From: Pseudomonas deceptionensis
GTDB taxonomy: Bacteria > Pseudomonadota > Gammaproteobacteria > Pseudomonadales > Pseudomonadaceae
Assembly: GCF_900106095.1 (NCBI RefSeq)
Contig: NZ_FNUD01000002.1
Span: 3,927,501 to 3,991,500 of the forward strand
Reading direction: 5' to 3'
Length of the DNA stretch: 64,000 bases
The notes under the pieces were generated by a model. The model ran no database searches, was not told the DNA's origin, and saw only the letters and a program-made list of their open reading frames with translations. Shown here one piece after another: positions 1 to 32,120 of this stretch (its first letter is position 1; every line of letters begins with the position of its first letter). The translations under genes and the position numbers were made by a program.

Positions 1-873
1 GGCGATTTCAGTCGACATGTCAGCCAAACGAAACGCCACCGCCTGATGCTCAACCAATGGCTGCCCAAAGGTCACACGCTCGCGGGCATAGTCGCGGGCG
101 GCCTCGAATGCAGCGCGGGCCATGCCCACCGCCTGGGAGGCGATACCAATGCGCCCGCCTTCCAGATTGCCCAGGGCGATTTTATAGCCCTGGCCCTCTT
201 CACCCAGACGGTTGGCCACCGGCACTTTCAGGTCGGTAAACAGAATCTGGCAGGTGTCCGAGGCGTGCTGCCCCAGTTTGTCTTCAACCCGGGCCACGCT
301 GTAACCCGGTGAATCCGTGGGTACGATAAACGCCGTGATCCCGCGTTTACCCGCTGCCGGGTCGGTCACGGCGAACACAATCACAACCCCGGCGTTTTGC
401 CCCGAGGTGATGAACTGCTTGCAGCCGTTGAGCACGTAATAATCGCCTTCACGGCGGGCCCGGGTTTTCAGGTCGCTGGCATCGGAGCCGGCCTGCGGTT
501 CCGTCAGGGCAAACGCGCCCAGCATCGCGCCGCTGGCCAGAGGCACCAGAAACTCGCGTTTTTGCTGCTCGGTGCCGAACTTGAGAATCGGCACGCAGCC
601 CACCGAGTTGTGCACGCTCATGATCGTGGAGCACGAACCGTCGCCGGCGGCAATTTCTTCCAGGGCCATTGCGTAGGCCTGATAGCCCGTGTCGCAACCG
701 CCCCACTCCTCAGGCACCAACATGCCGAAAAACCCCAGTTGCGCCATCTCGTCAATGGCCTCGCGGGGGAAACGGTGCTGCTTGTCCCATTCAGCCGCAA
801 AGGGCTTCAAACGTTCCTGGGCAAACTGCCGGGCCGCTTCACTGATTTGTAATTGTTCGGGTGTGGGCAGCAT
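1..873 (-). CDS. Acyl-CoA dehydrogenase (C-terminus beyond left edge)
   Basis: FAD-dependent acyl-CoA dehydrogenase that puts a trans-2,3 double bond into an acyl-CoA and passes electrons to ETF (etfBA lies at 7896-9606). The reading frame has no stop before base 1, so only the first 291 residues are visible. The family signature TEPQAGSD lies at residues 124-131. The catalytic glutamate, expected in the C-terminal part, is outside the window. AAGGA sits 6 bases before the ATG. The gene follows the thiolase by 9 bases and is the last visible gene of a ligase-SDR-thiolase-dehydrogenase operon. The substrate is unknown; the set suits a short or branched acyl-CoA. The order resembles the PA2552-PA2555 region of P. 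aeruginosa as I recall it. Confidence 0.93.
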   Translation of the reverse strand, partial: MLPTPEQLQISEAARQFAQERLKPFAAEWDKQHRFPREAIDEMAQLGFFGMLVPEEWGGCDTGYQAYAMALEEIAAGDGSCSTIMSVHNSVGCVPILKFGTEQQKREFLVPLASGAMLGAFALTEPQAGSDASDLKTRARREGDYYVLNGCKQFITSGQNAGVVIVFAVTDPAAGKRGITAFIVPTDSPGYSVARVEDKLGQHASDTCQILFTDLKVPVANRLGEEGQGYKIALGNLEGGRIGIASQAVGMARAAFEAARDYARERVTFGQPLVEHQAVAFRLADMSTEIA

Positions 874-882
874 ATGAAATCC

Positions 883-2076: not shown

Positions 2077-2086
2077 TTCACACCCC

Positions 2087-2854
2087 TTATTTGGCGGCCA
2101 TGCGCAAGGCGCCGTCGAGACGGATCACCTCGCCATTGAGCATGCTGTTTTCAATGATATGCCGCACCAGCGACGCGTACTCGCAAGGCTTGCCCAGACG
2201 CGACGGGAACGGCACGCCGGCGGCCAGCGAATCGCGCACTTCAGGCGTCATGCCGGCCATCATCGGCGTTTCGAAAATGCCGGGTGCGATGGTCATTACC
2301 CGAATCCCGAAGCGCGCCAATTCACGGGCAGCGGGCAAGGTCAGACTGGCGATGGCGCCTTTGGAGGCCGCGTACGCAGCCTGGCCGATCTGACCATCAA
2401 ATGCCGCCACAGACGCCGTGTTGATGATCACGCCGCGCTCGCCATCGGCATCGGCGCTGCTGTCGGCAATCGCCGCAGCCGCCAGTCGCAGCATGTTGAA
2501 GCTACCGATCAGGTTGACGTTGATCACCTGACTGAAGCTCTCCAGCCCGTGGGGGCCGTTTTTGCCGAGAATCTTTTCGCCGCGCACAATGCCCGCGCAA
2601 TTGACGAGCCCGTTGACCTCGCCAAAGGCTGCCACCGTGGCCTCAACTGCCGCCTGCGCCGCATCCGCCTGGCTGATGTCCGCCACGGCACTGCGGGCCT
2701 GGCTGCCAAGCTTGCCCGCCTGTGCGGCCACGGCCTCGGCATTCATGTCGACCAGCATCACCCTGGCGCCTGCTGCCACCAACATCTCGGCGGTCGCTGC
2801 GCCCAGTCCCGATGCACCACCGGTGACGATAAAAACCTTGTTTTGGATTTGCAT
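2087..2854 (-). CDS. SDR-family 3-hydroxyacyl-CoA dehydrogenase
   Basis: Short-chain dehydrogenase of 255 residues. Nucleotide-binding TGGASGLG is at residues 11-18, an acidic Asp37 follows the second strand (NAD preference), and the active site is YAASK. It resembles type II 3-hydroxyacyl-CoA dehydrogenases (HSD17B10 type), which oxidise 3-hydroxyacyl-CoA to 3-ketoacyl-CoA, the step just before the neighbouring thiolase. Two tandem ATGs exist; the second (2854) is chosen because AAGGA lies about 7 bases before it, against 4 for the first. Longer in-frame extensions upstream overlap the preceding ligase gene and do not look like protein. No enoyl-CoA hydratase is visible in the window; it may lie beyond the left edge. 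Confidence 0.91.
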
Positions 2855-2870
2855 CATTGATTCCTTGGGG

Positions 2871-4535
2871 TCATGCCGTGACTTTGGCGTTTGCGGCCAT
2901 TTCAGCCTTGGCGATTTCCTGATTGCGCAAAATAAAGCGCTGCAGCTTGCCGCTCGGGGTTTTCGGCAGTTCACTTACAAATTCGATTTCACGGGGGTAA
3001 GCATGGGCGGCCAGACGCTGGCGCACATGCAGGCGCAGGGTTTCGGCCAGTTGTGCATCCCCCAGGTACTGTGGGCTGAGCACTACAAAGGCTTTGACCA
3101 GTTCGGTACGCTCGGGGTCCGGCTTGCCCACCACAGCGGCTTCGATAACGGCAGGGTGTTCGATCAGGGCGCTTTCCACATCGAATGGCCCCACGCGGTA
3201 ACCCGAAGTGGTGATCACGTCATCGCTGCGCCCGACAAAGCTGATGCTGCCGTCCGGGTTGAGCTCCACGGTGTCGCCACTCAGGTAGTAATCGCCAACG
3301 AACGCCTTGGTCTTGAAGCCCTGATAGCCGCCGAACCAGCACATCGGCGACTGGCTGCGATCGACTGCCAGAATCCCCGGTTGGCCAACAGGCAGTTCCT
3401 GATGGTTGTCATCGAGCACCACGATACGGTGGCCCGGCGAGGCAAAGCCCGCAGCGCCCATGTGCACCGGATGGTTGAGTCCATGGTGGTTGCACAGCAC
3501 CATGCCGACTTCGGTCTGGCCGTAGTGGTCGTGGATGGTGACGTTGAGTTCATCGGCGAACCAGCGGATCACTTCAGGGTTCAAGGGCTCGCCGGCGCTG
3601 CTGACGGCACGCAACTGGCCTTTGACCTTGCTGGAGAACGCATCCCCGGCGGCAATCAGCATGCGGTAGGCCGTGGGTGATCCGGTGAGGTTGGTGATGC
3701 CCAGTTTCTTGATCACCCGGCAGGTGCTTTCGACCGTGAAAGGGCCATCGTAAAAGGTGATGGGATGGCCCATGGACAACGGCCCGGTGATGCCGAAATA
3801 GATCCCGTAGGCCCAGCCCGGATCGGCCAGGTTCCAGAAGGAATCCTCGGGGCGCAGATCCACCGCGTCACGGGTGTAGCTCTGGAACGCGACAATCGCC
3901 TTGAGCGGTACCAGCAGCGGCTTGGCCGGGCCCGTGGTGCCCGAGGTGAACATCAGCAGGAACGGATCTTCGCCGGTCAGCATTACCGGTTCACAGACGG
4001 CCGGGTAGTTGCCCAGCTCGGCCCAGAAGCTGAAATCACCGCGCACCAGCCCCTGACCCTTGGCGCCTGCCACCGTGACAATTGCCGGGCAGTCATTGAC
4101 CTCGGTGAGTTTGGCGCGGTTTACCGCGTCCGTGACCACCAGCCTGGCGCCGGAGTTGTTGAGCCGGTGCTCGATGGCCTTGGGCCCGAACGCGGTAAAC
4201 AGCGGCTGGTAGATGGCGCCAATGCGCCAGGCGGCGAAGGCAACGACCAGCAGTTCGACATCGCGTGGCAGTAAACCCGCCACCTTGTCACCGCGTTTTA
4301 CGCCTTGGGCCAGCAAAAAGTTGGCAAAGCGTGCGGCCTGGTCCTGAAGCCAGGTAAAGGTGTACGTAGCGCTGCTCGCATCGCGCCCCTCCCAGAACAA
4401 CGCAATTCGACCAGGCAAAGCGTGCCGGTCACAGCACTCGACACAGGCATTGACTGCCGCCAAATGGCCGTCCAGTGCGCCCGTCACCGTACGTTGGTAG
4501 TCAAAGTCAGTCATCGCGGTCAGATAGTCGCGCAT
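2871..4535 (-). CDS. AMP-dependent acyl-CoA synthetase
   Basis: Adenylate-forming acid:CoA ligase of 554 residues that activates a carboxylic acid with ATP and CoA and so feeds the operon. The P-loop-like signature is FTSGTTGPAKP, followed by YGQTE, the hinge segment GRSDDVITTSGYRVGP, and the C-terminal catalytic lysine in TPSGKLQRF. It is closer to the acetyl/medium-chain acyl synthetase branch than to long-chain FadD. The start at 4535 is preceded by GAGGG at 9 bases; in-frame sequence further upstream lacks family similarity. It is the first gene of the catabolic operon, with a 189-base non-coding gap to selU. The acid used cannot be read from the sequence. Confidence 0.92.
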   Translation of the reverse strand: MRDYLTAMTDFDYQRTVTGALDGHLAAVNACVECCDRHALPGRIALFWEGRDASSATYTFTWLQDQAARFANFLLAQGVKRGDKVAGLLPRDVELLVVAFAAWRIGAIYQPLFTAFGPKAIEHRLNNSGARLVVTDAVNRAKLTEVNDCPAIVTVAGAKGQGLVRGDFSFWAELGNYPAVCEPVMLTGEDPFLLMFTSGTTGPAKPLLVPLKAIVAFQSYTRDAVDLRPEDSFWNLADPGWAYGIYFGITGPLSMGHPITFYDGPFTVESTCRVIKKLGITNLTGSPTAYRMLIAAGDAFSSKVKGQLRAVSSAGEPLNPEVIRWFADELNVTIHDHYGQTEVGMVLCNHHGLNHPVHMGAAGFASPGHRIVVLDDNHQELPVGQPGILAVDRSQSPMCWFGGYQGFKTKAFVGDYYLSGDTVELNPDGSISFVGRSDDVITTSGYRVGPFDVESALIEHPAVIEAAVVGKPDPERTELVKAFVVLSPQYLGDAQLAETLRLHVRQRLAAHAYPREIEFVSELPKTPSGKLQRFILRNQEIAKAEMAANAKVTA

Positions 4536-16656: not shown

Positions 16657-17670
16657 TCAGCTGCTGCCCAGAATCAGGCTGCGATAGTGCCCCGGGTTGG
16701 TCCCTGACCACTTGCGGAAGGCCTTGTAAAACGAGCTGGTGTCGGCAAAGCCCAGGCGCAGGGCGATGTCGGCAAAGCTGTGGTCGGGTTCGGCCAGCCA
16801 GGCAATCGCCAGCTCCTTGCGCACACCGTCCTTGAGACCTTGAAAGGTTTGCCCTTCGTCCGCCAGACGACGGCGCAAGGTCGACGCCGACATGCACAGG
16901 CTCTGCGCCATGCCCGGGGTCTCAGGCCACTGTTCGGCAGGCTGCAGGCGCAGCGCCTGCTTGATTTGGCTGGCCAGGCTTTGCGGGTCGCGGTACTTGA
17001 CCAGGATATTGGCCGGCGCCTCGGCCAGAAACCGCTTCAGCTCCTGGGCGTTGCGCCTGATCGGCGCATCCAGGCAGTCGGCCGCGAAAATCATCCGCGT
17101 GCGGGGCCGGTCAAAGCGCAGGTTCTCGGAGAACATCACCTCGTAGTCTTCGCAGTAATCGGGCGTCGCACAGCGCAACTCTATCGCCAGAATCGGGATC
17201 CGCCGCCCGGCCAGCCAGCAGGCCACACCGTGCACGATCATCCAGTAGGTGAAGTAGGTGAAGCCACGGCCCGGATTCGAGTCAGGCTCCTGCAAGACAA
17301 TTTCCGCCAGGCTTTGCTGGCGCACCAGCCGCGCCGGCAAGCGCTCCAACATCAACGACAGGAACCCCAGCACCACCTCAAGCCCCTGGGCCAGAGTCGG
17401 CTGGGCCATGGCCGTTCGACACATGAATTCCAGGCTGCCGGAGCGCAACTTGCGCGGGTCCATGCCGAAAAACTCGTCATCCAGACGCCGCGCCAACAGC
17501 CGCCACATCCGCGCATAGACCAATGCAGGCACACGGGCATCCGGCTGATCGAGCAGCGCGGGGGCAATGCCGACCTTGTGCAGCACTTCGTCCGTGGCGC
17601 TACCCGGCGCACAGCTCTGCAACAGAGCCTCGCGCACCAGATAAATGGAGATGGTGTCCTTGTTCAGCAT
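16657..17670 (-). CDS. AraC-family transcriptional regulator
   Basis: A 337-residue regulator with an N-terminal arabinose-binding-like domain (the OruR/ArgR-like group with AxxEF/CRTAMAQPTL features) and a C-terminal AraC DNA-binding domain with two helix-turn-helix units; FADIALRLGFADTSSFYKAFR is the second. The target is not obvious: upstream on the same strand lies only the 3' remnant of an MFS gene (17742-17859). A remnant of a related AraC gene sits beside the intact MFS at 20585, so this regulator may once have been adjacent to that MFS gene. Confidence 0.9.
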   Translation of the reverse strand: MLNKDTISIYLVREALLQSCAPGSATDEVLHKVGIAPALLDQPDARVPALVYARMWRLLARRLDDEFFGMDPRKLRSGSLEFMCRTAMAQPTLAQGLEVVLGFLSLMLERLPARLVRQQSLAEIVLQEPDSNPGRGFTYFTYWMIVHGVACWLAGRRIPILAIELRCATPDYCEDYEVMFSENLRFDRPRTRMIFAADCLDAPIRRNAQELKRFLAEAPANILVKYRDPQSLASQIKQALRLQPAEQWPETPGMAQSLCMSASTLRRRLADEGQTFQGLKDGVRKELAIAWLAEPDHSFADIALRLGFADTSSFYKAFRKWSGTNPGHYRSLILGSS

Positions 17671-20423: not shown

Positions 20424-20565
20424 TCAACCGCCGGGGATGCCCCGGATGGTTCCCGTCCACTTTCGAAAGGCTTTGTAAAACGAGCGAGTGTCGGCAAAGC
20501 CCGGTTGCTGGGCTATGTCGGCATGGCTGTGGTCGGGCTCGGCCAGCCAGCCAGCAGGCACTGCC
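20424..20565 (-). pseudogene. C-terminal remnant of an AraC-family gene
   Basis: On the minus strand the frame reads WLAEPDHSHADIAQQPGFAD, then TRSFYKAFRKWTGT, followed by a stop. This matches the last 45 or so residues of the AraC protein at 16657-17670 (WLAEPDHSFADIALRLGF...). Identity is clearly lower than for the MFS remnant (near 80 % at base level by eye), so it is an older paralogue. All of the upstream gene is missing. It lies directly downstream of the intact MFS gene. Confidence 0.85.
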
Positions 20566-20584
20566 TGCACGATCTTCCTGTACC

Positions 20585-21766
20585 TCAGGCGTGTACGGGC
20601 GTCACCACCGACGGTGCCGCCAAACGCTTGGCCAGCAACCCGGCAAACGCCACCACCGGCACCACCGCAGTGGCCAGGGCCAGCCACAACAACCCGGCAA
20701 ACCCGTCCGCCACCAGTTGCCCCGCCAGTGCCGGCCCCACCATCGAGCTCAGGGCAAACGCCGCCGGGATCAGCATGATCGAGCGACCGCTCGGGTCCAG
20801 ACGGGCAACGGCGGCCGTCTGGTAAATGCAGCCCCAGCAGAAACCCACTTCCCAAATCCAGGCACCCAGCGCGTACATCACAAAACCTTGTGCGTAGGCC
20901 AGTAACAGCAAGCCAGTGCCGATCACTGCCAGCACCAACAGGTGCGGCCAGCGTGAACCGAGGCGGTCGCCTATCAGGGCCAGCGCCAGCGCCGCACCGC
21001 CGCCGAGCAGTTTAAGCACCGCGAACACCACGCCCATCTGCCCCGGCGCCACCTCCAGGCCATGCCCCAGACGCTCAAGAAATGCCCACAGGCCAATCTG
21101 CCCGGCGCCAAATACAAAGAAAAATCCCAGTGCCCAATACGCCGGCACCGGGAAGCGAAAGCGGCCTTGAAGGGAGCTCTCTTCAGCCAAACCGGTCTGT
21201 ACCGAGAAGTCACTGCGCCGCGGCAACGCGAAGGCGCTCAGGCTCAGCAACAGAATCATTGCCGCCAATACCCGTGCGGCTCCGGCGTAATGAAAATGGC
21301 TGATCACCAGCGATGGCAACACAAACAGCACCAGCGCCACCAGGCCAAGCTCAATGCCCTGACGGATGCCAAACGCCCGCTCCTTGTTGGGCATTTCGGC
21401 CATGATCCGCAACCCGAGGCAGGTCATCAATGCAGCAAAAAAACCGATCAAAGCCCACAGCGGCAATTGCGCCGGCGCCGGTAATTGTGACGAGGCCAGC
21501 AACGCCAGCGCCGCACCCAGCGCGCAACCGAATGTCAGGACACGCCAGTTGCAGCGGTCAATAAAGCCCACCGCAACCAGCGTTCCCACCAGGTAGCCAC
21601 TGAAACACACAGAGCCCAACAGACCGATTTGCGACGGTGCAAAGCTGAAACTGTCCGCCAGCGCCCCCAGCAAAATGGGCAATGTATTGAAGGGCAAACC
21701 GCCGATGGTCGACGCCAGGCTTGCCGCCAACATAAAGGTCAGCGTTTTACGTGGATTCAGCATCAT
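20585..21766 (-). CDS. MFS transporter
   Basis: Major facilitator protein of 393 residues with 12 predicted segments. The start (ASLASTIGGLPFNTLPILLG) and GYLVGTLVAVGFIDRCNWR (loop 2-3) are typical of the group often annotated as YbfB/aromatic or hydroxy-acid MFS. It is 27 bases after the Rieske oxygenase and on the same strand, so it likely imports the substrate of that cluster. The last 118 bases of this gene are duplicated at 17742-17859. Confidence 0.87.
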   Translation of the reverse strand: MMLNPRKTLTFMLAASLASTIGGLPFNTLPILLGALADSFSFAPSQIGLLGSVCFSGYLVGTLVAVGFIDRCNWRVLTFGCALGAALALLASSQLPAPAQLPLWALIGFFAALMTCLGLRIMAEMPNKERAFGIRQGIELGLVALVLFVLPSLVISHFHYAGAARVLAAMILLLSLSAFALPRRSDFSVQTGLAEESSLQGRFRFPVPAYWALGFFFVFGAGQIGLWAFLERLGHGLEVAPGQMGVVFAVLKLLGGGAALALALIGDRLGSRWPHLLVLAVIGTGLLLLAYAQGFVMYALGAWIWEVGFCWGCIYQTAAVARLDPSGRSIMLIPAAFALSSMVGPALAGQLVADGFAGLLWLALATAVVPVVAFAGLLAKRLAAPSVVTPVHA

Positions 21767-21793
21767 CGGCAGTGCCCTTCACGGAGTCTTCTT

Positions 21794-22831
21794 TCAGCGT
21801 TGATCTACGGTTGTGATTTCACGGCGCTCGGCCATGCTCGCCGGAACGCTGGCTTCATCGGTGAAGAACTGCTGGTACCACTCGCGCAGCTGATACACCG
21901 GACCGTCGCCCTCGGCCAGTACCGGGTTGTTGACCCGCACTTTGTGGGTCCAGATATCAACGTCCTGGTAGAACGAGTCGCGGTTGCGCTGCACGTAATC
22001 CACCGCCAGCGCTTCGTTCTGGGCATCGGTCCAGCCAGGGACTTTTTTCACCATGCAGCCAAAGCGCAGCTCAAAGCTGTTGGGGCCTATCGGCACGTGG
22101 CAGTTGAGCAGGATGGACTTGATTTCCTGCCCGTCGAACACCGCACTCATGCGCGTCAGGTGAGTCGCCGGGCCGTAATAGGCCGACTCTGCCACCAGAT
22201 CGCCGCCCAGACGCTCGGAGTCACCGTGGAAAATCTGCTGGGCGATATGCCCTTCAAAAACGTTATGGAAGTACTTGGTCGGCGTGCCATGCACCGGGCC
22301 GAAATGCTGGGCATCCACCAGATTGTCGACCAGCTCGCGGGGGTTGGTGTTGATGATCAGCTTGTCCATGTGCCAGCTGTGCAGCCAGTCTTCGCTGTCC
22401 ATCTCCGGCAGGTGCGGAATCACCACGTCTTCGGCGGGCGGCTTGCCTTCAGGGTTGTTCCATACAAACAGCAGCTTGTTCACTTCGCAGGTCTGCCAGG
22501 CGCGGGTTTTGGCCTTGGGCGGAATGCGCTTGCAGTAAGGGATCTCGACGCACTTGCCGCTGGCATCGTACTGCCAGTGGTGGAAGGCGCAGACTACCCG
22601 GTCATTCTCGATGGTGCCCTGGGACAGGTCAGCGCCCATGTGCGGGCAATGGGCGTCGAGCACACTGATCTCGCCCTTGGACGTGGCGAACGCCAGCAGT
22701 CGTGAGCCAAAGATATTCAGGGTATGCAGCTTGCCATCACGGTATTCATCCGCTTCACCCAGGCAATGCCAACCACGGCCAAAGCGCGGCGACAAAGCAT
22801 TCTCGACGTGGATTTCTGCGAGTTTAGTCAT
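21794..22831 (-). CDS. Rieske non-heme iron oxygenase, KshA-like
   Basis: A 345-residue terminal oxygenase. The Rieske [2Fe-2S] ligands are Cys62, His64 (CPHMG) and Cys81, His84 (CAFHH). The mononuclear iron site is in NLVDAQHFGPVH (Asp173, His176, His181 region). The start RFGRGWHCLG, NVFEGHIA and the REWYQQFF segment strongly resemble 3-ketosteroid 9-alpha-hydroxylase oxygenase KshA and cholesterol 7-desaturase-type enzymes. Such enzymes hydroxylate or desaturate steroid-like rings. No reductase gene (KshB type) is nearby, so electrons must come from an unlinked partner. Its neighbours are two SDRs and an MFS. Confidence 0.9.
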   Translation of the reverse strand: MTKLAEIHVENALSPRFGRGWHCLGEADEYRDGKLHTLNIFGSRLLAFATSKGEISVLDAHCPHMGADLSQGTIENDRVVCAFHHWQYDASGKCVEIPYCKRIPPKAKTRAWQTCEVNKLLFVWNNPEGKPPAEDVVIPHLPEMDSEDWLHSWHMDKLIINTNPRELVDNLVDAQHFGPVHGTPTKYFHNVFEGHIAQQIFHGDSERLGGDLVAESAYYGPATHLTRMSAVFDGQEIKSILLNCHVPIGPNSFELRFGCMVKKVPGWTDAQNEALAVDYVQRNRDSFYQDVDIWTHKVRVNNPVLAEGDGPVYQLREWYQQFFTDEASVPASMAERREITTVDQR

Positions 22832-22998
22832 TTTTATTATTCCTCAGGTTAAGGGCCAGGGCGCTTTACTGAGTGATCTTCACCGAGGTGACTAACTGGC
22901 TCATCGTTCAGATGGACTAGTTGCAGCGCCCTGCACACATCCATGCGGGCGCTGGCTTGCCTGCGATACGCACAACGCGGCGTTTCAGACAGATTGAG

Positions 22999-23040
22999 GG
23001 GATGCCATCGCGAGCAAGCTCGCTCCCACAGGGTGGGAGC
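22999..23040. repeat. REP hairpins between SDR and Rieske genes
   Basis: GCGAGCAAGCTCGC (around 23010-23023) and the adjacent GCTCCCAC-AGG-GTGGGAGC (23022-23040) are the common fluorescens-type REP sequence. They occupy the 218-base gap between the SDR and the Rieske gene and may partly separate their expression. The remainder of 22832-22998 shows no gene. Confidence 0.8.
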
Positions 23041-23049
23041 CCGCCTTTA

Positions 23050-23883
23050 TCAGCGCCAATCCTCAACAATCCCGTGCTCACGGGCAAACGGCTGGCAGTG
23101 AATGGTTTTGCGCTGATGATCCACCGCTGCATCACTGGTCGCCAGCCACACCATGACCGCAGCCGGCACTTGCGGCGGCGCAGAGCCTGCACGCAAGGCA
23201 ATCACGCCTTTGTCGCCGATAGTGGCGCGCAAGGCGTCAGTGGTCACGACACCCGGGTTGAGGGTGAAAGCGCGAATCCCCTGATCCCCGAACTCCACGG
23301 ACAAAATGCCCGACAAACGCGACACCGCCGCTTTGCCCGCGCCATAGGCATAACCCCAGCCGCCCTTGCCCGCCGCCACCGGCGGATCGGTTTCACCGGC
23401 GCCGGAGGTGACATTGATTACCACACCGCCGCCCTGCTCCAACATCTGGCTGACCACGGCCCGAGTCAACAGGAACGGGGTCATGACATAGCCCTGGAAC
23501 ACCCGCTCCAGCGTCTCGGGCTGCAGCTCCATAAATGGCGCGTTAAGGTCGCTGCCCTGGTAGATCGCGTTGTTGACCAGCACATCCACCCGGCCATATT
23601 CGGCAAGCACCGCCTGGCTGGCCGCGAGCACCGACTCGCTGTCGAGCAGGTCCATGCGTACCACCAGCGCCTTGCGGCCCAGCTCGCGGATCGCCGCAGC
23701 GGTGGCATTCAGACTGCCGGGCAGTGCCGTGCCGTCCGGGTTGCGCAAGCCGTGGGTATGGTTTTCGCCTTCATCCAGGCTACGGGCGCTGATGGCCAGA
23801 TCAAAACCTGCCCGGGCAAACGCCAGAGCGGTTTCCCGACCAATGCCGCGACTGGCGCCCGTAATAAATGCCACTTTGTTCAT
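23050..23883 (-). CDS. Short-chain dehydrogenase/reductase
   Basis: SDR of 277 residues. TGASRGIG is at residues 8-15, NNA in VLVNNAIYQG, and the active site is Tyr-x3-Lys in YAYGAGKAA. After the second strand it has an arginine (ARSLDEG), which suggests NADP(H). It acts on a hydroxyl or keto group of the pathway substrate (inference from its neighbours). It is 16 bases downstream of the HsdA-like gene and in the same operon. Confidence 0.9.
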   Translation of the reverse strand: MNKVAFITGASRGIGRETALAFARAGFDLAISARSLDEGENHTHGLRNPDGTALPGSLNATAAAIRELGRKALVVRMDLLDSESVLAASQAVLAEYGRVDVLVNNAIYQGSDLNAPFMELQPETLERVFQGYVMTPFLLTRAVVSQMLEQGGGVVINVTSGAGETDPPVAAGKGGWGYAYGAGKAAVSRLSGILSVEFGDQGIRAFTLNPGVVTTDALRATIGDKGVIALRAGSAPPQVPAAVMVWLATSDAAVDHQRKTIHCQPFAREHGIVEDWR

Positions 23884-23899
23884 GGGAATTCCTTAAAAG

Positions 23900-24667
23900 T
23901 CAGAAGCGCTGCGCACGCACCATCGCGTCCATGCCACCGTCGACAAACACCACGCTGCCGGTCACAAAGCTGGCCTGGTCCGATTGCAGAAAAGCCACCA
24001 CCCGGGCGATTTCTTCAGGCGTGCCCGCACGGCCCAATGGCGCCACAAACTCACGCACCGCCTTGCCGAACCGAGCGTCATCCTTGGCCGCCTGATGCAG
24101 CGGGGTTTCTACCGCGCCCGGCGCAACCACGTTCAGGCGTATGCCTTGCGCGGCCCATTGCACCGACTTGCGCCGTGCCTCACAGGTCACCGCGTACTTG
24201 GAACTGGCGTAGGCGATGTGGGGCTGGCCCAGTGCATTGGCCAGTTCCAGCGCGTGCGCCTCGTCACCGGCCAGCAGGGCTGCGACCATCGGCTGTTGAT
24301 CTGCACCGGGCTGAGTGGCAGCCACCGAGCCAATCACCAGTGCCGCCGGGTTTTCACCCTTGGCCAGAGCATCCGCCAGGCCGTCAAGCAACTCACTGAC
24401 GCCAAAATAGTTCACCGCCAGCACCAGACTGCTTGAAGACGCCGTCACCCCCAGCCCTGCACAGCACACCAGCCCGTCAAGCACACCACCGGACTGCTCA
24501 AGTACCTGCGCCACCGCCGCCTGGCGCCCGGCACGGGTCGACAGGTCGGCGACCACTTCGGCGCTGGCCCGGTCAATCCCGATGATGCGGTGCCCCGCAG
24601 CCCGCAAAACGGCGCACACGGCGGCGCCGATCCCGGAAGCGGAACCACTGACAGCTGTAACTGGCAT
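23900..24667 (-). CDS. HsdA-like 3-alpha-hydroxysteroid dehydrogenase/carbonyl reductase
   Basis: SDR of 255 residues that follows Comamonas testosteroni HsdA closely as I recall it: GSASGIGAAVCAVLRAAGH, then GVLDGLVCCAGLG, VNYFGVSELLD, and the C-terminus DGGMDAMVRAQRF. Catalytic residues are Ser114, Tyr153 and Lys157. Known relatives oxidise or reduce the 3-position of steroids and also reduce other carbonyls. The ATG at 24667 has AAGGA upstream; a longer in-frame start is rejected. It supports a steroid- or terpenoid-like substrate for the cluster. Confidence 0.88.
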   Translation of the reverse strand: MPVTAVSGSASGIGAAVCAVLRAAGHRIIGIDRASAEVVADLSTRAGRQAAVAQVLEQSGGVLDGLVCCAGLGVTASSSSLVLAVNYFGVSELLDGLADALAKGENPAALVIGSVAATQPGADQQPMVAALLAGDEAHALELANALGQPHIAYASSKYAVTCEARRKSVQWAAQGIRLNVVAPGAVETPLHQAAKDDARFGKAVREFVAPLGRAGTPEEIARVVAFLQSDQASFVTGSVVFVDGGMDAMVRAQRF

Positions 24668-24760
24668 AAGACTTTCCTTGATGATGCAGGCGCACGGTGG
24701 CCTGACTGATGAGCAACCGGCAGTGGCGATCAATCGCCACTGCCGGCCGGTAGACGGTGC

Positions 24761-26005
24761 TTAAGCGCTTTTACGAATCGGCCGTGCCAACTGTGGCGCC
24801 GGTACTATCACGGACTCAGCCGCTCGCAAGGCGCACTTGGGCTTTCCCAACGCGACCACGCTGTTCAGCAGAATCCTTACCAGTTCGGTCTGGCGACGCA
24901 CACCGGTCTTGGAGAAGATCGAACGCAGATGCGCACGGGCAGTGTTGCGCCGAATATTCAGGTTCTCTGCGGCTTCTTCCAGGGACAAACCGTTGGCCAG
25001 TTCCATTGCCAGCGCCGTTTCGGCCTTGGTCAGATTGAACAGCTGTTTGGTCACCACTTCACTGGCCAGCGACTTGCCAACCGAGTCGCGGATGTAGATC
25101 ACCGCAGCCGGCTTGCTTTTGCCCTCGGCCCATTCCAGCGAAGGGATCGCCTCGACCACCAGCCCCAGGCTGACCTGGCCCGAAGGCCGCGTGACGGACA
25201 TGGCGTCGGCGGTCACGCCACCATCGCGCACTTCCTGACTAAAGGCGTGTTTGACCAGACGCTGCAACTCACGGTTGTCGCTGGGGTAGGTCGCCTCCAG
25301 CCTGCCGCCCACCAGCTTGAGGCCATCGGCATTCTTGAGGATTTCTTCGGCGACCGGGTTCAGGCGCAGTACCTTGCCGGTTTCATCCAGCACAATGGTC
25401 GCCACGGACAGGCGGCTGATTGCCTGTGCGTAAAGTTCGCTCATGGACTCGCTGCGATCGAGCAGGTTGTGCAGGTGCAGGGCCCGGCGCAAATGCGGCA
25501 GGAAGCTGCTGCACAACGCGCGTTCGGCACTGGAGAATTTGGGGGACGTTTTGGGCCGGGTAAGACGAAAGCGCAGCTTGCCACCGTCGGGGGTCGAAAT
25601 ATCGGCGCCCATTACATGGTAGACATCCTGCTTGGCACAGTAGGCCTTGAAGTACGGCGATTGCACCCACTCGGATTCGCTCATCAGGTCTTCAACCGTG
25701 AACACCTGATCAAGCGCCTGCCCGGCGAACGGGGTATTAGCTTGCGGGTAAGTCTGATACGTCAGCTCACCCTCGCCCTCGATATCGCCGGCCACGATCA
25801 TCAGGCCCAGATCCGGCTGGTCGGGCACTCGCAGGATCAGCGTTGCGTAGTTGGCCTGGAACATTTTGCGTACGGCGCACAAACTACGCCCCATGATCTT
25901 CGGGTCCAGCGCACCGTCGTAGAAGCTGCCGACCATGTGATCGTAATCAGCCAGTTCGAGCCCCAGACTGGCCAGGGTTTGGTGGTTCAGGGTCACTGTA
26001 TCCAC
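24761..26005 (-). CDS. LuxR-family transcriptional regulator
   Basis: A 414-residue regulator with a large N-terminal sensory part (PAS/GAF-like; PAS-type SRLSVATIVLDETGKVLRLNP at about 205-225) and a C-terminal LuxR helix-turn-helix at about 340-390 (LTKAETALAMELANGLSLEEAAENL). It lacks an AHL-binding signature, so it is not a quorum-sensing receptor of the usual kind. It lies inside the Rieske/SDR/RND cluster and is its probable regulator. Relatives beside RND-YCF48 pairs occur in lipid and terpenoid gene clusters. Confidence 0.9.
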   Translation of the reverse strand: MDTVTLNHQTLASLGLELADYDHMVGSFYDGALDPKIMGRSLCAVRKMFQANYATLILRVPDQPDLGLMIVAGDIEGEGELTYQTYPQANTPFAGQALDQVFTVEDLMSESEWVQSPYFKAYCAKQDVYHVMGADISTPDGGKLRFRLTRPKTSPKFSSAERALCSSFLPHLRRALHLHNLLDRSESMSELYAQAISRLSVATIVLDETGKVLRLNPVAEEILKNADGLKLVGGRLEATYPSDNRELQRLVKHAFSQEVRDGGVTADAMSVTRPSGQVSLGLVVEAIPSLEWAEGKSKPAAVIYIRDSVGKSLASEVVTKQLFNLTKAETALAMELANGLSLEEAAENLNIRRNTARAHLRSIFSKTGVRRQTELVRILLNSVVALGKPKCALRAAESVIVPAPQLARPIRKSA

Positions 26006-26159
26006 GGATGTTTCCTCGCATTGGGTCAGGTTCGGGACCGACCCTTTTTATTGTTCTTATTACCAGCGGCTGCTTTTGCGCATGCACTGTAGCACTGCGC
26101 AAAAGCCACTCAGTGTGTCTTTATGTTGACCGCCATACAAGCTCGACAAGCGGTCTGTT

Positions 26160-28586
26160 TCAACGGTTTGACGAGTCCTTGGCCGCCACGCTCTGCTTGA
26201 GCGGGTAATGCCCGGCAGGCGCCTCCTGGCTGCCGGTTTTAACCTTGACCAGCGGGCGCCCCAGGTTGAACCAGGCCGCCAGGGCGGGCAGTAAAAAGAT
26301 CGCCCCAAGCACGTTGACCAGGAACATGAAGGACAGCAGCACGCCCATGTCGGCCTGGAATTTCAAGGGAGCAAAGGCCCAGGTACAGACGCCGATGGAC
26401 ATGGTCAGCGCGGTGAACACTGCCGCCGTACCACGTTGGCACATGGCCTGGTAAAACGCGTTGCGCAGGTCCTTGCCGTCGGCCATCTCATGAGCAATGC
26501 GCTCGTACAGATAAATCCCGTAATCGACCCCCACCCCCACGCCCAGCGCCATCACGGGCAAGGTTGCGACCTTGAGGCCGATGCCCAGGGTCGCCATCAA
26601 GGCGTTGCACAGAATGGCGACGATCGCCAACGGCACCAGAATGCACAGCACTGCGCGAAATGAGCCGAAGGTCAGCCAGCAGAACAGCGCTACCGAGCCG
26701 AACAGGGCGGCCAGCATCACCACCTCGGCCTGCTTGACCGCTTCGTTGGACGCGGCCATCACGCCCACGTTGCCGCCCGCCATCAGGAACTCCACATTCG
26801 GCCCTTGCAGGCCGGCAATGATGCGTTGGGTTTCATTGACCACATGGCTGACGGTCGCACCTTCGTGGTCGGTGAGGAACACCAGGATCTGCATGCGCTG
26901 GCAGCCTTCCGTCACCAGCCCGTCATCCGGCATATATGCCCGGGAGCCCTGACTCAGGCCACGCTCGGAACCCGGGATTGCCGACCAGCGCGGATTGCCT
27001 TCGTTGTTGCCGGCAATCACGGTTTTGCCCATGCCCGCCACACTCTGTACCGACTGCACGCCGGCCACGCTGCGGATCTGAAAATCGAACGACTCGATTG
27101 CCCGCATCACCTGCGGCGCCAGGCAACCTTCTTCGATGCCCTTGACCTGCACAAACACCGACATCACATCCAGGCCGATGGAATAACTGTTGATGATCTT
27201 CTGGTTGTCCTGGTTGTAACGCGAGTCGGCCCGCAGCTCCGGCGCACCGACACCAATATCGCCCACCGCCAGGTCCCGGGCCTTCCAGGCGCCCACGCCC
27301 AACAGCAGCAGGCTGATCACAAACACCGCCAGCGCCGGTTTCGGCTCGGCCAGCGCCGACAGGCGCCACCACAAGGCGTGCTTGCCCTGAACCTTGAGCC
27401 CTTGGGCCATGGCACTCGGCTCAAGCTTCAAGTACGAAAGAATGATCGGCAGCATCAGCTTGTTGGTGATGATCATCAGCATCACCCCGATACAGGCGGT
27501 CACCCCCAGTTCATGGACGATGGGAATGTCGATCAGCATAATCACGCCAAAGCCCAGGGCGTTCATCAACAGCGCCAGGGAGCCCGGAATGAAAATCTTG
27601 CAAAAGGCACCGCGGGCAGCCTCCACCGACGAACTGCCGCCCAGCACATCCTGCTTCCAGGCATTGGTCATCTGTACCGCATGGGATACACCAATCGAGA
27701 AAATCAGGAACGGCACCAGGATCGACATCGGGTCGATCCCCAGCCCCAGCAAAGGCAGCAACCCCAGAAGCCATACCACCGGCAGCAAAGCCACAGCCAG
27801 CGCCACCACGGTCAGGCGCCATGAGCGCGAATAGAACCACAACATCAGGGCCGTGATCACAAAGGCAATCACGAAGAAACCGATCACGGTGGTCAGCCCG
27901 TCGACCACATCACCCACCAGCTTGGCAAAGCCGACGATATTGATCTCGACATCGTCATTGCTGTACTTGGCGCGGATATCTTCAAGCCGCTTGGCCACCT
28001 CGGCATAGGACACCGATTTACCGGTTTGCGGGTCCAGGTCCTGCAAGTCGGCGCGTACCATCGATGACGTCAAGTCATTGGATACCAGCCGCCCCACCTG
28101 CCCCGAACGGGCCACGTTGCTGCGCACCTGGGACAGGTCTTCGGCGGAACCGGTAAAGCGCGGCGGCACCACCACGTCACCAAAGAATCCGTCTTCGGTG
28201 ATTTCGATGTAACGCACGTTGGCCGTAAACAGCGAGGTCACACTGGCGCGGCTCACACCGTTGATGAAGAACACGTCATCGGTGACTTTGTTCAGGGTTT
28301 CGAGGTACTTGCGGTTATAGATATCGCCCTCGCCCTTCCACTTGACGCTGACCAGAAAGCGGTTGGCGCCGGTGAAGTACTGGCTGAAGTTGAGGAAGTT
28401 GACCATAAACGCGTTGCGCACCGGGATCTGCTTGTTAAAGCCCGGGTCCAGCTGGGTATAGGTGGCGCTGTAGCCCAGGGCCAGGGTCAGCAGTACAAAC
28501 AGCGCCAGCAAGCCCTTGCGCCAGGTGATGAGCAGATCGGCAACGCGCTCGACCGCGCGGTTTACCGCAGTTTTTTCGCGACTCAC
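26160..28586 (-). CDS. RND/MMPL-family exporter
   Basis: An 808-residue RND protein of the MMPL/HpnN type. It has an N-terminal TM segment and periplasmic loop, then two TM blocks with the pattern SMLVPFLIFSIGVSHAVQM and VMALGVGVGVDYGIYLYERI. It lacks membrane-fusion and outer-membrane partners. Such proteins move lipids, hopanoids or hydrophobic substrates across the periplasm. Start GTG overlaps the stop of the beta-propeller gene by 4 bases (GTGA). A 154-base gap separates it from luxR. The likely cargo is the lipid handled by the adjacent enzymes (inference). Confidence 0.92.
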   Translation of the reverse strand: MSREKTAVNRAVERVADLLITWRKGLLALFVLLTLALGYSATYTQLDPGFNKQIPVRNAFMVNFLNFSQYFTGANRFLVSVKWKGEGDIYNRKYLETLNKVTDDVFFINGVSRASVTSLFTANVRYIEITEDGFFGDVVVPPRFTGSAEDLSQVRSNVARSGQVGRLVSNDLTSSMVRADLQDLDPQTGKSVSYAEVAKRLEDIRAKYSNDDVEINIVGFAKLVGDVVDGLTTVIGFFVIAFVITALMLWFYSRSWRLTVVALAVALLPVVWLLGLLPLLGLGIDPMSILVPFLIFSIGVSHAVQMTNAWKQDVLGGSSSVEAARGAFCKIFIPGSLALLMNALGFGVIMLIDIPIVHELGVTACIGVMLMIITNKLMLPIILSYLKLEPSAMAQGLKVQGKHALWWRLSALAEPKPALAVFVISLLLLGVGAWKARDLAVGDIGVGAPELRADSRYNQDNQKIINSYSIGLDVMSVFVQVKGIEEGCLAPQVMRAIESFDFQIRSVAGVQSVQSVAGMGKTVIAGNNEGNPRWSAIPGSERGLSQGSRAYMPDDGLVTEGCQRMQILVFLTDHEGATVSHVVNETQRIIAGLQGPNVEFLMAGGNVGVMAASNEAVKQAEVVMLAALFGSVALFCWLTFGSFRAVLCILVPLAIVAILCNALMATLGIGLKVATLPVMALGVGVGVDYGIYLYERIAHEMADGKDLRNAFYQAMCQRGTAAVFTALTMSIGVCTWAFAPLKFQADMGVLLSFMFLVNVLGAIFLLPALAAWFNLGRPLVKVKTGSQEAPAGHYPLKQSVAAKDSSNR

Positions 28587-29563
28587 TTGGCACCTCCAAG
28601 TGCAGCAACACTGCCATCAGTGCCCTGGAACACACCGCGTTCACCGCCCACCAGCAGGCGCCCGGTATCCACCAGTACCGCTGAAGTCAATGTCCCCAGG
28701 CCCGACAGCCGAGTGGCACTGACCAGGTGGCCATTACCGTCCAGACGCACCAGGGAGCTGCCAGCCCCGACAATCAGCAACCCGCCGCCATTGGGCAACA
28801 GCGCATGACCGTAAAGTGGCAACTGATTCCCCACCGCCACCGCGTCCCAGGTACGGCCAAAATTCTGACTGACAAACACATGGCCGCGCATGCCGTAGGC
28901 CACCCAACGATCCGGGCTCAGCCGCACCACACCAAACAAGGAACCGTTGTAGAACGGCTCCAGCTTTTTCCAGTTGCGGCCGGCATCATCGCTGCGCAGT
29001 ACCAGGCCTTGCTCACCGACCACCATCCGCCGACCATCCGCACCGCCGTCCATGCCATTGAGGTGAGCACTGTCTACCTCAATGGGCTGGGCTTGCCAGG
29101 TGAGGCCGTCATCATCGGACTGGTAAAACTTGCCAAAACTGCCGAAGGTCATCACGCGGTTGCCGCCGGCACTCCAGATCCCCAGCAAAGGCTCGGCGAT
29201 TTCGCCGTCATAGCGGACCTCGGTCCAGTGCGCGCCTTTGTCAACGGAGCGCAAAATCCAGCCATCGTGGCCCACCGCCAACAGGTTTTTGTCATCCAGC
29301 GCCACCAGCGCGGTCAGGGTCAGATCACGCTGCGGCTCGACCGCAGCCGGTTGCCAGGACACGCCCTGATCATCACTGAGCAAAATATTGCCGCGCTCAC
29401 CCACCGCGACCACACGCTGGTCGAGGTACAGCATGCCGTTGATTTGCAGGCGATCCGGGCGCAATTGGGCCGAGGCGACGTTTGAGGCAGTGCGGGGGGA
29501 GAAGGTAAACGCGATGGTTGCAGCGACAATCAGGCATACCAGATAGCCGATTAATGAGCGCAT
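28583..29563 (-). CDS. YCF48/BNR-repeat beta-propeller protein
   Basis: A 326-residue exported protein: an N-terminal hydrophobic segment (residues 5-22), then repeated blades with the BNR-like pattern S-x-D-x-G-x-x-W (LLSDDQGVSW, RSVDKGAHW, QSDDDGLTW, RSDDAGRNW, VSQNFGRTW). It belongs to the YCF48/HCF136-like group, here found with RND exporters rather than photosystem II. It probably serves as a periplasmic partner or folding factor of the exporter, with which it is translationally coupled. It is the first gene of the whole minus-strand cluster; the REP array lies upstream. Confidence 0.88.
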   Translation of the reverse strand: MRSLIGYLVCLIVAATIAFTFSPRTASNVASAQLRPDRLQINGMLYLDQRVVAVGERGNILLSDDQGVSWQPAAVEPQRDLTLTALVALDDKNLLAVGHDGWILRSVDKGAHWTEVRYDGEIAEPLLGIWSAGGNRVMTFGSFGKFYQSDDDGLTWQAQPIEVDSAHLNGMDGGADGRRMVVGEQGLVLRSDDAGRNWKKLEPFYNGSLFGVVRLSPDRWVAYGMRGHVFVSQNFGRTWDAVAVGNQLPLYGHALLPNGGGLLIVGAGSSLVRLDGNGHLVSATRLSGLGTLTSAVLVDTGRLLVGGERGVFQGTDGSVAALGGAK

Positions 29564-29773
29564 GGTAGATGCCTCGCTGCACGATTCAGTTGCTGGGCAG
29601 AGTTCATGCAGCCAGTCCTCTTTTTATTATCTTGGATGCCCTGGCTGCCTCCTCGGCGAAGTGGCCAGAACCTGCCTTCGATCATCGGACTGGTCGGTCA
29701 CACACACATCGTCCAAACGGCCTAGCCCGGATGGAGGAGTGAAAAAACGGCCAGAGAGAATGGTTTTGCACCG

Positions 29774-29920
29774 GTAGCCGCTGACGAGTGGAACGAGGCT
29801 GCGTTCGAGCGCGAAGCGGTCGCAAAACCGGTACACGCGGTATGCCTGATTAGCCGTGGAAGCTGACTTTACGACTGCTGCGCAGCCGAACGCAGCCTCG
29901 CACGGCTCGTCAGCGGCTAC
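29774..29920. repeat. REP doublet, unit 1
   Basis: Begins GTAGCCGCTGACGAG and ends with its exact inverse, CTCGTCAGCGGCTAC. Between them are GAACGAGGCTGCG, AGCGCGAAGCGGTCGCAAA, ACCGGTACACGCGG and GCAGCCGAACGCAGCC blocks. This is a REPIN-type structure, mobilised in trans by RAYT transposases in related Pseudomonas; no RAYT gene is in the window. Confidence 0.9.
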
Positions 29921-29943
29921 AGATTCGCCACCAATTCCGTGTT

Positions 29944-30080
29944 GTAGCCGCTGACGAGTAGAACGAGGCTGCGAACGAGCGCGCAGCGGTCGCAAAGCCG
30001 GTACACGCGGTATGCCTGATTAACCGTGGAAGCTGATATCACGACTGCTACGCAGCCTCGCACGGCTCGTCAGCGGCTAC
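29944..30080. repeat. REP doublet, unit 2
   Basis: Same ends as unit 1. It is 10 bases shorter because one copy of the GCAGCCGAAC block is missing before the right end. Confidence 0.9.
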
Positions 30081-30103
30081 AGATTCGCCACCGACTCCGT
30101 GTT

Positions 30104-30250
30104 GTAGCCGCTGACGAGTAGAACGAGGCTACGTTCGAGCGCGAAGCGGTCGCAAAACCGGTACACGCGGTTTGCCTGATTAACCGAGGAAGCTGACTTT
30201 ACGACTGCTGCGCAGCCGAACGCAGCCTCGCACGGCTCGTCAGCGGCTAC
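30104..30250. repeat. REP doublet, unit 3
   Basis: Same ends and length as unit 1. It starts 160 bases after unit 2, where other unit spacings are 170. Confidence 0.9.
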
Positions 30251-30273
30251 AGATTCGCCACCGACTCCGAGTT

Positions 30274-30420
30274 GTAGCCGCTGACGAGTAGAACGAGGCT
30301 GCGTTCGAGCGCGAAGCGGTCGCAAAACCGGTACACGCGGTTTGCCTGATTAACCGAGGAAGCTGACTTTACGACTGCTACGCAGCCGATCGCAGCCTCG
30401 CATGGCTCGTCAGCTCCTAC
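30274..30420. repeat. REP doublet, unit 4
   Basis: Same left end. The right end is mutated to CTCGTCAGCTCCTAC, so the arms no longer pair fully. Confidence 0.88.
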
Positions 30421-30443
30421 AAATTCGCCAGCAATTCCGTGTT

Positions 30444-30560
30444 GTAGCCGCTGACGAGTAGAACGAGGCTGCGAACGAGCGCGAAGCGGTCGCAAAACCG
30501 CTACACGCGCAGTGCCTCATTAACCGAGGAAGCTGACTTAACGACTGCTGCGCAGCCTCA
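30444..30560. repeat. REP doublet, unit 5, right end lost
   Basis: Intact left end and middle. The copy stops at GCAGCCTCACACACTC, just before the stop codon of the MATE gene on the minus strand, so the right REP is missing. Confidence 0.85.
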
Positions 30561-30565
30561 CACAC

Positions 30566-31921
30566 TCAAACCAGCCGCTGAATCTGCTTGTGCCGCCATA
30601 CCAGCCGGTAGTACGCGGTTTGCAGCGCCAGCATGGCGATGTAGGTCACGGGGAACGCCATCCACACGCCTTCAAGACCGAAGTGGGCATTGAGGGCATA
30701 CGCCACCGGCAGCTCGATGCACAGCACACAGAAGATGGTGATCCCCATCGGCACCAGCACCACGCCGCTGGCCCGCATGATCCCGCCGATCACCGCCTGG
30801 AAGCCAAATACCAGAATGCTCCACAGCATGATGTGCAGCAGGTGTTCGGCCCGAACCCGCGCATCGACGTCAGTGATAAACAGCCCCAGCAACCAGTGCG
30901 ACAGCACGTAGCCCAGCACAATCAGGGCACCGGTCAGGCACAGGTTGATCAGCAGGCCTGTGCGCAGGATCGCGCCTATACGTTCAATGCGTCCCGCACC
31001 GATAGCCTGGGCCCCAAGAATGGAGGCGGTGATGGCAATCGACAACGCCGGAAACTGCACGTAGTTGACGATCTGGGTGACCGCGCCATAGGCCGCTGTA
31101 GCCTGGGAACCGTGGCTGTTGACCAGCGCCAGAATCACCAGCTCCGACAACGACAGCACCACCATTTGCACGCCGGTGGGCAAGCCGATGCGCAACACCT
31201 TGCCCAGAATTTCGGGGGTCAGGCGCAGCGCGGCCAACAGCTCGCGGTCCGGCGCCATGACATGGTTTTTGTGCCGCAGACGCAGCACCAGAAACAGCAT
31301 GGCCAGCACGTTGCCCACCAGCCCCGCATAGGCAGCACTTTGAATGCCCATCGGTGGCAACCCGGTCCAGCCGAGGATCAGCGCCGGCGTCAGCAGCAAA
31401 CCCACCGCCGTAGACACCATCAGCGCCAGCAACGGCGAAACCGTGTCACTGACGCCACGCAAAATTTGCGTAAACAGAATAAACACCAGCAGCAACGGCA
31501 TGATCAGCATCATCACCCGGGCATAGCCCACCGCCTCGTCCAGCACGTCGGCCGGCGTGCCCAGTGCCTGCAAGGCAGGCCGCGCCAGCAAGCTGCCCAG
31601 CACCGCCGCGGCCAGGCCGATCAACGCCCCCAGGGTCAGCGTGGCCCCCGTGATCTGCTTGACCATTGCGGTCTCGCGCGCCCCCCAGGCCTGCCCGATC
31701 AGCACCGAAGCCCCCGCCCCCAGGCCGATCACCAACGCGATAAAGAAAAACACGATGGGAAACATCCCCGACACCGCTGCCAGCGCCTGGGTGCCCAGCA
31801 ACTGCCCGACATAAATACCGTTGAGCGTGCCGGAAAAACTCTGAAGGAAATTGGACAGCACCATCGGCGCCAGAAAGATCAGGTAGATCTGCCACAGCGG
31901 CCGTTGCGAAGGGGTTTGCAT
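30566..31921 (-). CDS. MATE-family efflux transporter
   Basis: Multidrug and toxin extrusion protein, 451 residues with 12 membrane segments in two homologous halves. The start FLAPMVLSNFLQSFSGTLNG and VGQLLGTQALAAVSGMFP are typical of NorM-like MATE pumps, driven by Na+ or H+. The start at 31921 is the first ATG of the conserved region; a longer open frame upstream reads basic, non-conserved sequence. It is divergent from a two-component system with 199 bases between, which could control it. Confidence 0.92.
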   Translation of the reverse strand: MQTPSQRPLWQIYLIFLAPMVLSNFLQSFSGTLNGIYVGQLLGTQALAAVSGMFPIVFFFIALVIGLGAGASVLIGQAWGARETAMVKQITGATLTLGALIGLAAAVLGSLLARPALQALGTPADVLDEAVGYARVMMLIMPLLLVFILFTQILRGVSDTVSPLLALMVSTAVGLLLTPALILGWTGLPPMGIQSAAYAGLVGNVLAMLFLVLRLRHKNHVMAPDRELLAALRLTPEILGKVLRIGLPTGVQMVVLSLSELVILALVNSHGSQATAAYGAVTQIVNYVQFPALSIAITASILGAQAIGAGRIERIGAILRTGLLINLCLTGALIVLGYVLSHWLLGLFITDVDARVRAEHLLHIMLWSILVFGFQAVIGGIMRASGVVLVPMGITIFCVLCIELPVAYALNAHFGLEGVWMAFPVTYIAMLALQTAYYRLVWRHKQIQRLV

Positions 31922-32120
31922 TAAGAGAGGGCCTGATGAAATAAACGTCAAAGGTTTATACCGCAAATGTATCTGAATGTTGAATCCTGGGCCCACGGCA
32001 TAAAAGGCATTTCGGCTACGCTTCCTGACAGCCCGCTGAACGTGAAGAAATATTAAGAAACGTTTCAGCATTTTGTAGGCAAAATGTGCTTACCGCTGAA
32101 AAAGCCCATCAGGTGACGGT

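Follow-up and report, generated by a model that had tools for sequence, protein, structure and literature searches.

The seven genes at 20585–29563 of the window (the whole 64-kb stretch of DNA analysed) very probably form one arm of an aerobic 9,10-seco degradation regulon for bile acids and steroids of the Pseudomonas stutzeri Chol1 type, divided in Pseudomonas deceptionensis among three chromosomal pieces. These genes are ordinary components of a known pathway that have come to lie away from their partners, and a puzzling orphan cluster thereby becomes a testable piece of that pathway. The points of interest left are the three-way split and a candidate operator shared by the pieces. Gene content, gene order, co-occurrence among genomes, and the distribution and spacing of the candidate operator box were read directly from the DNA.

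All seven open reading frames lie on the minus strand. This layout and the families named in a first-pass annotation (MFS, Rieske, two SDRs, LuxR, MMPL and YCF48) were confirmed by ORF coordinates and Pfam searches, respectively. The first gene encodes a YCF48-like beta-propeller (28583–29563; PSII_BNR PF14870, 53.5 bits), followed by an MMPL/HAE3-type RND transporter (26160–28586; PF03176, 66.5 bits; TIGR00921, 187.9 bits, not reaching the model cut-off of 351.9), a LuxR-type regulator with a GTG start (24761–26005; GerE, 27.8 bits), a predicted 3-alpha-hydroxysteroid dehydrogenase (HSD; 23900–24667; adh_short), an SDR-family dehydrogenase (23050–23883; adh_short), a KshA-type 3-ketosteroid 9-alpha-hydroxylase oxygenase (21794–22831) and, as the last gene, an MFS transporter (20585–21766; PF07690, MFS_1, 57 bits). 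No GC island was found, the 2-kb bins of the module having a GC content of 0.60–0.63 vs 0.55–0.63 in the window.

Several features flank the module. A MATE transporter gene on the same strand occupies 30566–32071, and between it and the YCF48 gene lies a tandem array (29774–30557; 170-bp unit, 4.7 copies, 90% matches). Downstream of the MFS gene, positions 20448–20633 retain the decayed C-terminal part of an AraC gene (53% identity). An intact AraC gene (16657–17670) is located 3 kb beyond this fragment, past a carbonic anhydrase and SulP pair labelled by eye; in all seven close relatives an AraC gene adjoins KshA or the MFS gene, unlike in the window.

The oxygenase combines a Rieske centre, a KshA_C domain (PF19298, 226.7 bits) and a 2-His-1-Asp iron site. 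Residues 10–341, nearly its full length, align to the KshA proteins of PDB entries 4qdc, 4qdf and 2zyl, which we take to be those of Rhodococcus and M. tuberculosis, with 344, 324 and 319 bits, while the next family (SxtT) reaches 79 bits. The metal ligands, of which the first-pass annotation had counted six, are all present but number seven: C62, H64, C82 and H85 of the Rieske centre, together with H176, H181 and D290 of the iron site, the latter taken manually from the alignment with KshA structures. In a tree of 29 rows, used for local placement only because its outgroup branches are very long, the window KshA and the P. fragi group fell inside a Pseudomonas/Stutzerimonas clade of 15 rows (98/100). 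Both the bit scores and the tree, in which the protein groups with KshA of steroid clusters, place it closer to KshA than to other Rieske oxygenases and outside the aromatic-ring and choline-type clades. Its predicted activity is 9-alpha-hydroxylation of a 3-ketosteroid. It was the sole KshA match in its own genome at E ≤ 1e-20.

The HSD matches two structures named 3-alpha-hydroxysteroid dehydrogenase, 2dkn (351.5 bits; presumably from Pseudomonas sp. B-0831) and 1fjh (235.7 bits; presumably from C. testosteroni). The mechanically called reading frame begins at a TTG upstream of the ATG at 24667, which is probably the real start. In the resulting 255-residue reading the Ser114-Tyr153-Lys157 triad was correctly numbered by the first-pass annotation, and the protein aligns to 2dkn across these 255 residues with the triad kept, suggesting that it would oxidize 3-alpha-hydroxysteroids. 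The link to steroid chemistry that had been drawn from family knowledge is thus borne out by the PDB matches and the KshA tree. No close solved relative was found for the SDR at 23050, the best being 7-alpha-HSDHs with about 75 bits. The LuxR-type protein has a C-terminal LuxR-type helix-turn-helix and is encoded inside a steroid cluster, as is TeiR/TesR of Comamonas testosteroni, described as a LuxR-type activator in the available text of PMC6678751, PMC13101464 and PMC8700777; the likeness is drawn from this gene context. The RND pump and the YCF48 protein may act in the export of steroid intermediates or in envelope traffic.

A search of the window for the rest of the pathway gave no ring-cleavage genes, just distant homologues. 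Distant beta-oxidation homologues (ACAD, thiolase, SDR and CoA ligase; 27–38% identity) were seen on the minus strand at 172–4349. The first-pass statement that a full ring-cleavage set is missing is therefore true of the window, but such a set is present elsewhere in the same genome by homology, the basis on which all steroid genes at the two other loci were assigned. In the larger of these loci (3181115–3231445), in which no second KshA was found, KstD lies at 3190607–3192280 (PDB 7p18, 724.7 bits), and IpdA and HsaC (82% each) are side by side at 3226832–3228622. The same locus holds HsaF, HsaG (75%), HsaE (60%), a flavin reductase, an aldehyde dehydrogenase, an amidase, HsaA, a second FAD-binding protein, HsaD, IpdB, IpdC, ChsH2, Ltp2 and ACAD-like side-chain genes, and a CoA-ligase-like gene recognized by eye. 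The partners expected of KshA, namely KstD, HsaC and a reductase, are thus all encoded in its own genome; the reductase, a ferredoxin-type KshB-like protein at 3194070, is of a general ferredoxin-reductase type, and its pairing with KshA is predicted.

The second locus is a C/D-ring block, EchA20-ACAD-ACAD-thiolase-SDR-SDR-MaoC-thiolase, at 2886297–2893873. Beside it, at 2871062–2879119, are a second MMPL gene (76% to that of the window), DUF1329, DUF1302 and two ACAD genes, and this set carries a two-mismatch copy of the box described below with good −10 spacing. Another set, with MMPL (38%), YCF48 (28%), DUF1329, DUF1302 and a ligase-like gene, is found at about 3.814–3.822 Mb, where nothing closely resembled the steroid genes searched for.

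KshA was sought in a set of 298 genomes of the same genus, which was sampled from a larger group and includes the present genome, and 62 gave a match at E ≤ 1e-20. Identity was at least 74% in 28 of these, 50–56% in 22 and 44% in one; the remaining 11 matches were weaker or partial (34% or lower, apart from a 66% fragment that contains a stop). The closest relatives were P. psychrophila (96%) and P. lundensis, P. fragi, P. helleri and P. saxonica (94–95%), which places the window in the P. fragi group, followed by P. fluorescens HK44 (88%), P. putida W15Oct28 (85%) and Stutzerimonas stutzeri K1 (83%). The module is also carried by P. psychrophila DSM 17535. HsaC, IpdA and KstD at 52% identity or more were present in all 31 KshA-positive genomes tested (all of the 28 closest, plus three drawn from the 22 at 50–56%) and in none of nine KshA-negative genomes, in which weaker matches reached 41% at most. 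EchA20 at E ≤ 1e-40 was likewise found in 15/15 KshA-positive vs 0/5 KshA-negative genomes.

Outside the own genome there were 52 places with KshA at 44% or more, of which 40 were fetched (28/28 at 74% or more and 12/24 others) and all of these were scanned. The genes proved to be co-conserved. The six-gene order YCF48-MMPL-LuxR-HSD-SDR-KshA was kept in 7/7 fetched loci at 93–95% KshA identity, two of which also have the MFS gene beside KshA, and all seven genes occur in each of the three loci of the 85% group. Among 16 loci at 74–77% (L053–L069 without L063), KshA and LuxR were found in all, MMPL in seven and YCF48 in eight, with a DUF1329 gene between KshA and LuxR in 15. Locus L063 (76%) has all seven genes, its MFS match covering 56%, and L052 has only MFS, KshA, HSD and LuxR. 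In the more distant group of 12 loci (L070–L081), a LuxR homologue (37–43% identical) is near KshA in 11, the twelfth being truncated at the end of its contig; an HsaF-type aldolase was found in seven, acetaldehyde dehydrogenase in five and FAA hydrolase in five.

In relatives the module adjoins steroid genes. In the 85% group, its neighbours are a thiolase, an SDR, EchA20, an NMO protein (IpdC), a hydratase, a CoA-transferase (IpdA), an HsaC-like extradiol dioxygenase, ChsH2-MaoC, an Ltp2-like protein and DUF1302. Family membership, position and Table 1 of PMC8399759 served to assign names such as IpdC and EchA20, and the gene beside IpdA, which matched no family at the limits used, was named IpdB by position. 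EchA20 of one relative (L085) scored above the PRK07938 model cut-off, while the relatives' KstD and HsaC stayed under their NCBIfam cut-offs (596 of 789 bits and 271 of 450 bits). Burkholderia arboris and Caballeronia SBC2 share the run IpdA-IpdB-hydratase-IpdC-EchA20-ACAD-ACAD-thiolase-SDR...SDR-MaoC-thiolase-YCF48-MMPL...KshA, so that KshA, MMPL and YCF48 adjoin C/D-ring genes there as well.

These results bear on the proposal of the first-pass annotation that the cluster is a stand-alone, undescribed lipid pathway modifying or detoxifying a sterol- or terpenoid-like compound without ring cleavage. Such a system would fit a window that by itself lacks ring-cleavage genes and a module that includes an RND pump. 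Nevertheless, the remaining 9,10-seco steps were found by homology in the same genome, with KstD, HsaA–HsaG and IpdA/B/C at the two other loci; KshA co-occurs with HsaC, IpdA and KstD in 31 of the 31 KshA-positive genomes tested; the module is contiguous with steroid genes in relatives; and a box is common to steroid promoters of all three loci. The stand-alone pathway was rejected on these four grounds and is scarcely credible.

The gene order follows that tabulated for Chol1, and the three pieces together resemble a bile-acid regulon of the Chol1 type that has been broken into three. Table 1 of PMC8399759 lists, by locus tag, HsaC (11215), IpdA (11220), IpdB (11225), a hydratase (11230), IpdC (11235), ACADs (11245/11250), a thiolase (11255), dehydrogenases (11260/11265), a hydratase (11270), the HIP thiolase (11275) and KshA (11300). 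The same functions and locus-tag order are seen here, including a TeiR-like gene (RS11295) followed by KshA (RS11300), in a comparison based on the table. The Chol1 cluster (C211_RS10975–RS11300) also includes an RND gene, a candidate exporter according to the available text of PMC8399759. That text further cites unpublished data in which deletion of the TeiR-like gene 11295 strongly delayed growth on cholic acid. In P. putida DOC21, a 3-alpha-HSD insertion mutant was unable to metabolize bile acids further (available text of PMC6678751). The two organisms differ in that Chol1 has one cluster and P. deceptionensis three separated pieces, and in that the Chol1 HSD has a far tag (RS10975) whereas the window HSD sits near KshA.

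With the pathway taken as real, its main target might be testosterone or other C19 steroids, bile acids being secondary. P. resinovorans grows on testosterone and not on cholate, as stated in the available text of PMC4810484. However, the genome encodes, as does Chol1 by its table, side-chain genes of the ChsH2/Ltp2 type as well as a 3-alpha-HSD, an amidase and an aldehyde dehydrogenase. A C19 target therefore appears improbable, and bile acids are the predicted substrate of the Chol1-type pathway.

The position of the MATE gene bears on how the split arose. In three relatives (G132, G198 and G196) the C/D-ring block continues directly into MATE-YCF48, which marks the MATE gene of the window as an old junction at which a rearrangement separated the block from the module. 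In another genome (G255), about 209 kb separates the block from KshA. Three separated pieces, with an AraC remnant and a repeat array beside the module, could also mean that the regulon is a decaying relic whose genes are kept while the pathway no longer runs. This is very improbable, as the seven reading frames are intact, KshA is 93–96% identical in the nearest relatives and boxes stand in front of each piece.

The box emerged when the sequence upstream of the window kshA was aligned with those of 12 relatives. The 13 promoters share a near-invariant element, CTAGTCCA...GATGA, and HSD promoters of three relatives carry TAGTCCGTGCGGACGATG. The resulting candidate operator, TAGTCC-N4-GRACGATG, is new in this analysis. 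In the window it occurs on the minus strand at 22902–22919 (TAGTCCATCTGAACGATG, no mismatch), its first base 88 bp before kshA and a −10-like GAAGAT at 22876–22881, and at 29707–29724 (TAGGCCGTTTGGACGATG, one mismatch), its first base 161 bp before the YCF48 gene and a −10-like GATGAT at 29681–29686. The window HSD promoter has no box at one mismatch or fewer.

At this limit the 5.1-Mb genome contains nine sites, eight of them at steroid promoters, although sites at KshA and HSD promoters are not independent because promoters of KshA, and of HSD in relatives, were used to derive it. The main cluster has sites at 3185853 (flavin reductase), 3189235 (HsaA), 3208168 (DUF1329), 3216303 (an SDR) and 3226764 (HsaC), and a site at 2886203 precedes EchA20, so that all three loci are represented. 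Two of these sites depend on the real start being, as is probable, later than the called one: that of HsaA runs into the called start, and that of DUF1329 stops about 14 bp short of its called start. The ninth site (3241778) is inside an ORF without a match to the steroid set. At two mismatches or fewer the genome has 59 sites vs 100 for a reversed control pattern, so only near-perfect sites are informative.

The box also follows KshA across genomes. In 30 genomes picked by KshA status, sites at one mismatch or fewer numbered 9–20 in each of 16 KshA-positive genomes (total 207) and 0–7 in each of 14 KshA-negative genomes (total 30); the reversed pattern gave 88 and 80, respectively. In 25 of the fetched loci, some of them overlapping, 64 boxes were found at this limit, 52 of which lie within 500 bp upstream of a same-strand labelled gene, including KshA, HSD, YCF48, DUF1329, HsaA, HsaC, KstD, DUF1302 and HsaD. 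The other 12 do not precede a labelled gene, some being at locus ends, and a 7-kb Sphingobium locus (L178) is the sole one of the 25 with no box. In Caballeronia SBC2 KshA is preceded by a perfect box; Cupriavidus necator has one-mismatch boxes before KshA and KstD, and Burkholderia arboris has two-mismatch sites only.

Spacing was analysed in 12 steroid-linked sites of the own genome, eight at one mismatch or fewer and four at two mismatches, the latter picked by position before their spacing was seen. A fifth two-mismatch site, 3185886, was dropped, being the opposite strand of the 3185888 palindrome. As a control, 20 of 45 two-mismatch sites elsewhere in the genome were used. When a −10-like A..AT pattern was scored along these sites, counting from the box start, the highest value was at position 40 (28 of 36 points), followed by 18 at position 37. 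An A at position 40 with A43 or T44 occurs in 11/12 steroid sites vs 7/20 controls (Fisher p = 0.003); for A40 alone the difference is modest (11/12 vs 9/20, p = 0.011). The one steroid-linked site that misses the spacing is that of DUF1329, and the site at 3241778 is also without A at 40. If A40 corresponds to −11, the box centre falls at about −41.5, the class II activator position.

The TeiR-like LuxR protein of the window is the likely reader of the box. KshA has a LuxR gene close by in Cupriavidus and in each of the two distant groups of Pseudomonas, whereas no LuxR homologue was found at E ≤ 1e-25 in the 37-kb stretches of Burkholderia and Caballeronia. The latter result would fit a different reader, for instance an AraC or second LuxR-type protein, as would the two LuxR genes in one locus of genome G042, the second LuxR further along in G265 and the two TeiR-like genes that the available text of PMC8399759 gives for Chol1. 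We regard a different reader as possible but doubtful. The available texts of PMC13101464, PMC12239570 and PMC8700777 give no TeiR/TesR box, and the EdcR repressor palindrome in that of PMC8700777 differs from the box.

A scheme can be proposed with the window LuxR protein as reader, in which enzyme activities, bile-acid substrate, electron partner and exporter cargo are all predicted. HsdA would oxidize the 3-alpha-hydroxyl of a bile acid, and KstD with its companions at 3.19 Mb would desaturate ring A. The window KshA, receiving electrons from the reductase at 3.194 Mb, would hydroxylate C9 and so lead to the opening of ring B. HsaA–HsaD and HsaE–HsaG (3.18–3.23 Mb) would finish the rings together with the beta-oxidation set (3.23 and 2.886–2.894 Mb), while the RND pump and YCF48 protein might export toxic steroid intermediates or serve envelope traffic. 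Binding of the LuxR protein to TAGTCC-N4-GRACGATG at about −41.5 would switch on all three pieces.

More broadly, we lean towards a reading in which TAGTCC-N4-GGACGATG near −41.5 is a steroid operator common to Pseudomonas and Burkholderiales, read by a TeiR/TesR-like LuxR protein encoded near kshA. It would keep the scattered regulon one unit and mark the P. fragi-group pseudomonads that spoil meat and milk as unrecognized bile-acid degraders. Degradation of bile acids by P. fragi-group bacteria is accordingly what this reading predicts; among the matches listed in the open-access literature (titles and abstract openings), nothing concerned the use of steroids or bile acids by P. fragi or P. 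lundensis. With its promoter-like geometry, the conserved box could also serve as a quick genomic marker for steroid genes outside the main cluster.

Searches for KshA beyond chromosomes found no phage relatives and, at E ≤ 1e-30, 37 plasmid records, all below 60% identity; a homologue on a Rhodococcus jostii RHA1 plasmid is 42.7% identical to the window KshA. One genome (G015) has two KshA modules, L052 (81%) and L057 (74%), with HsaC near each and one IpdA match.
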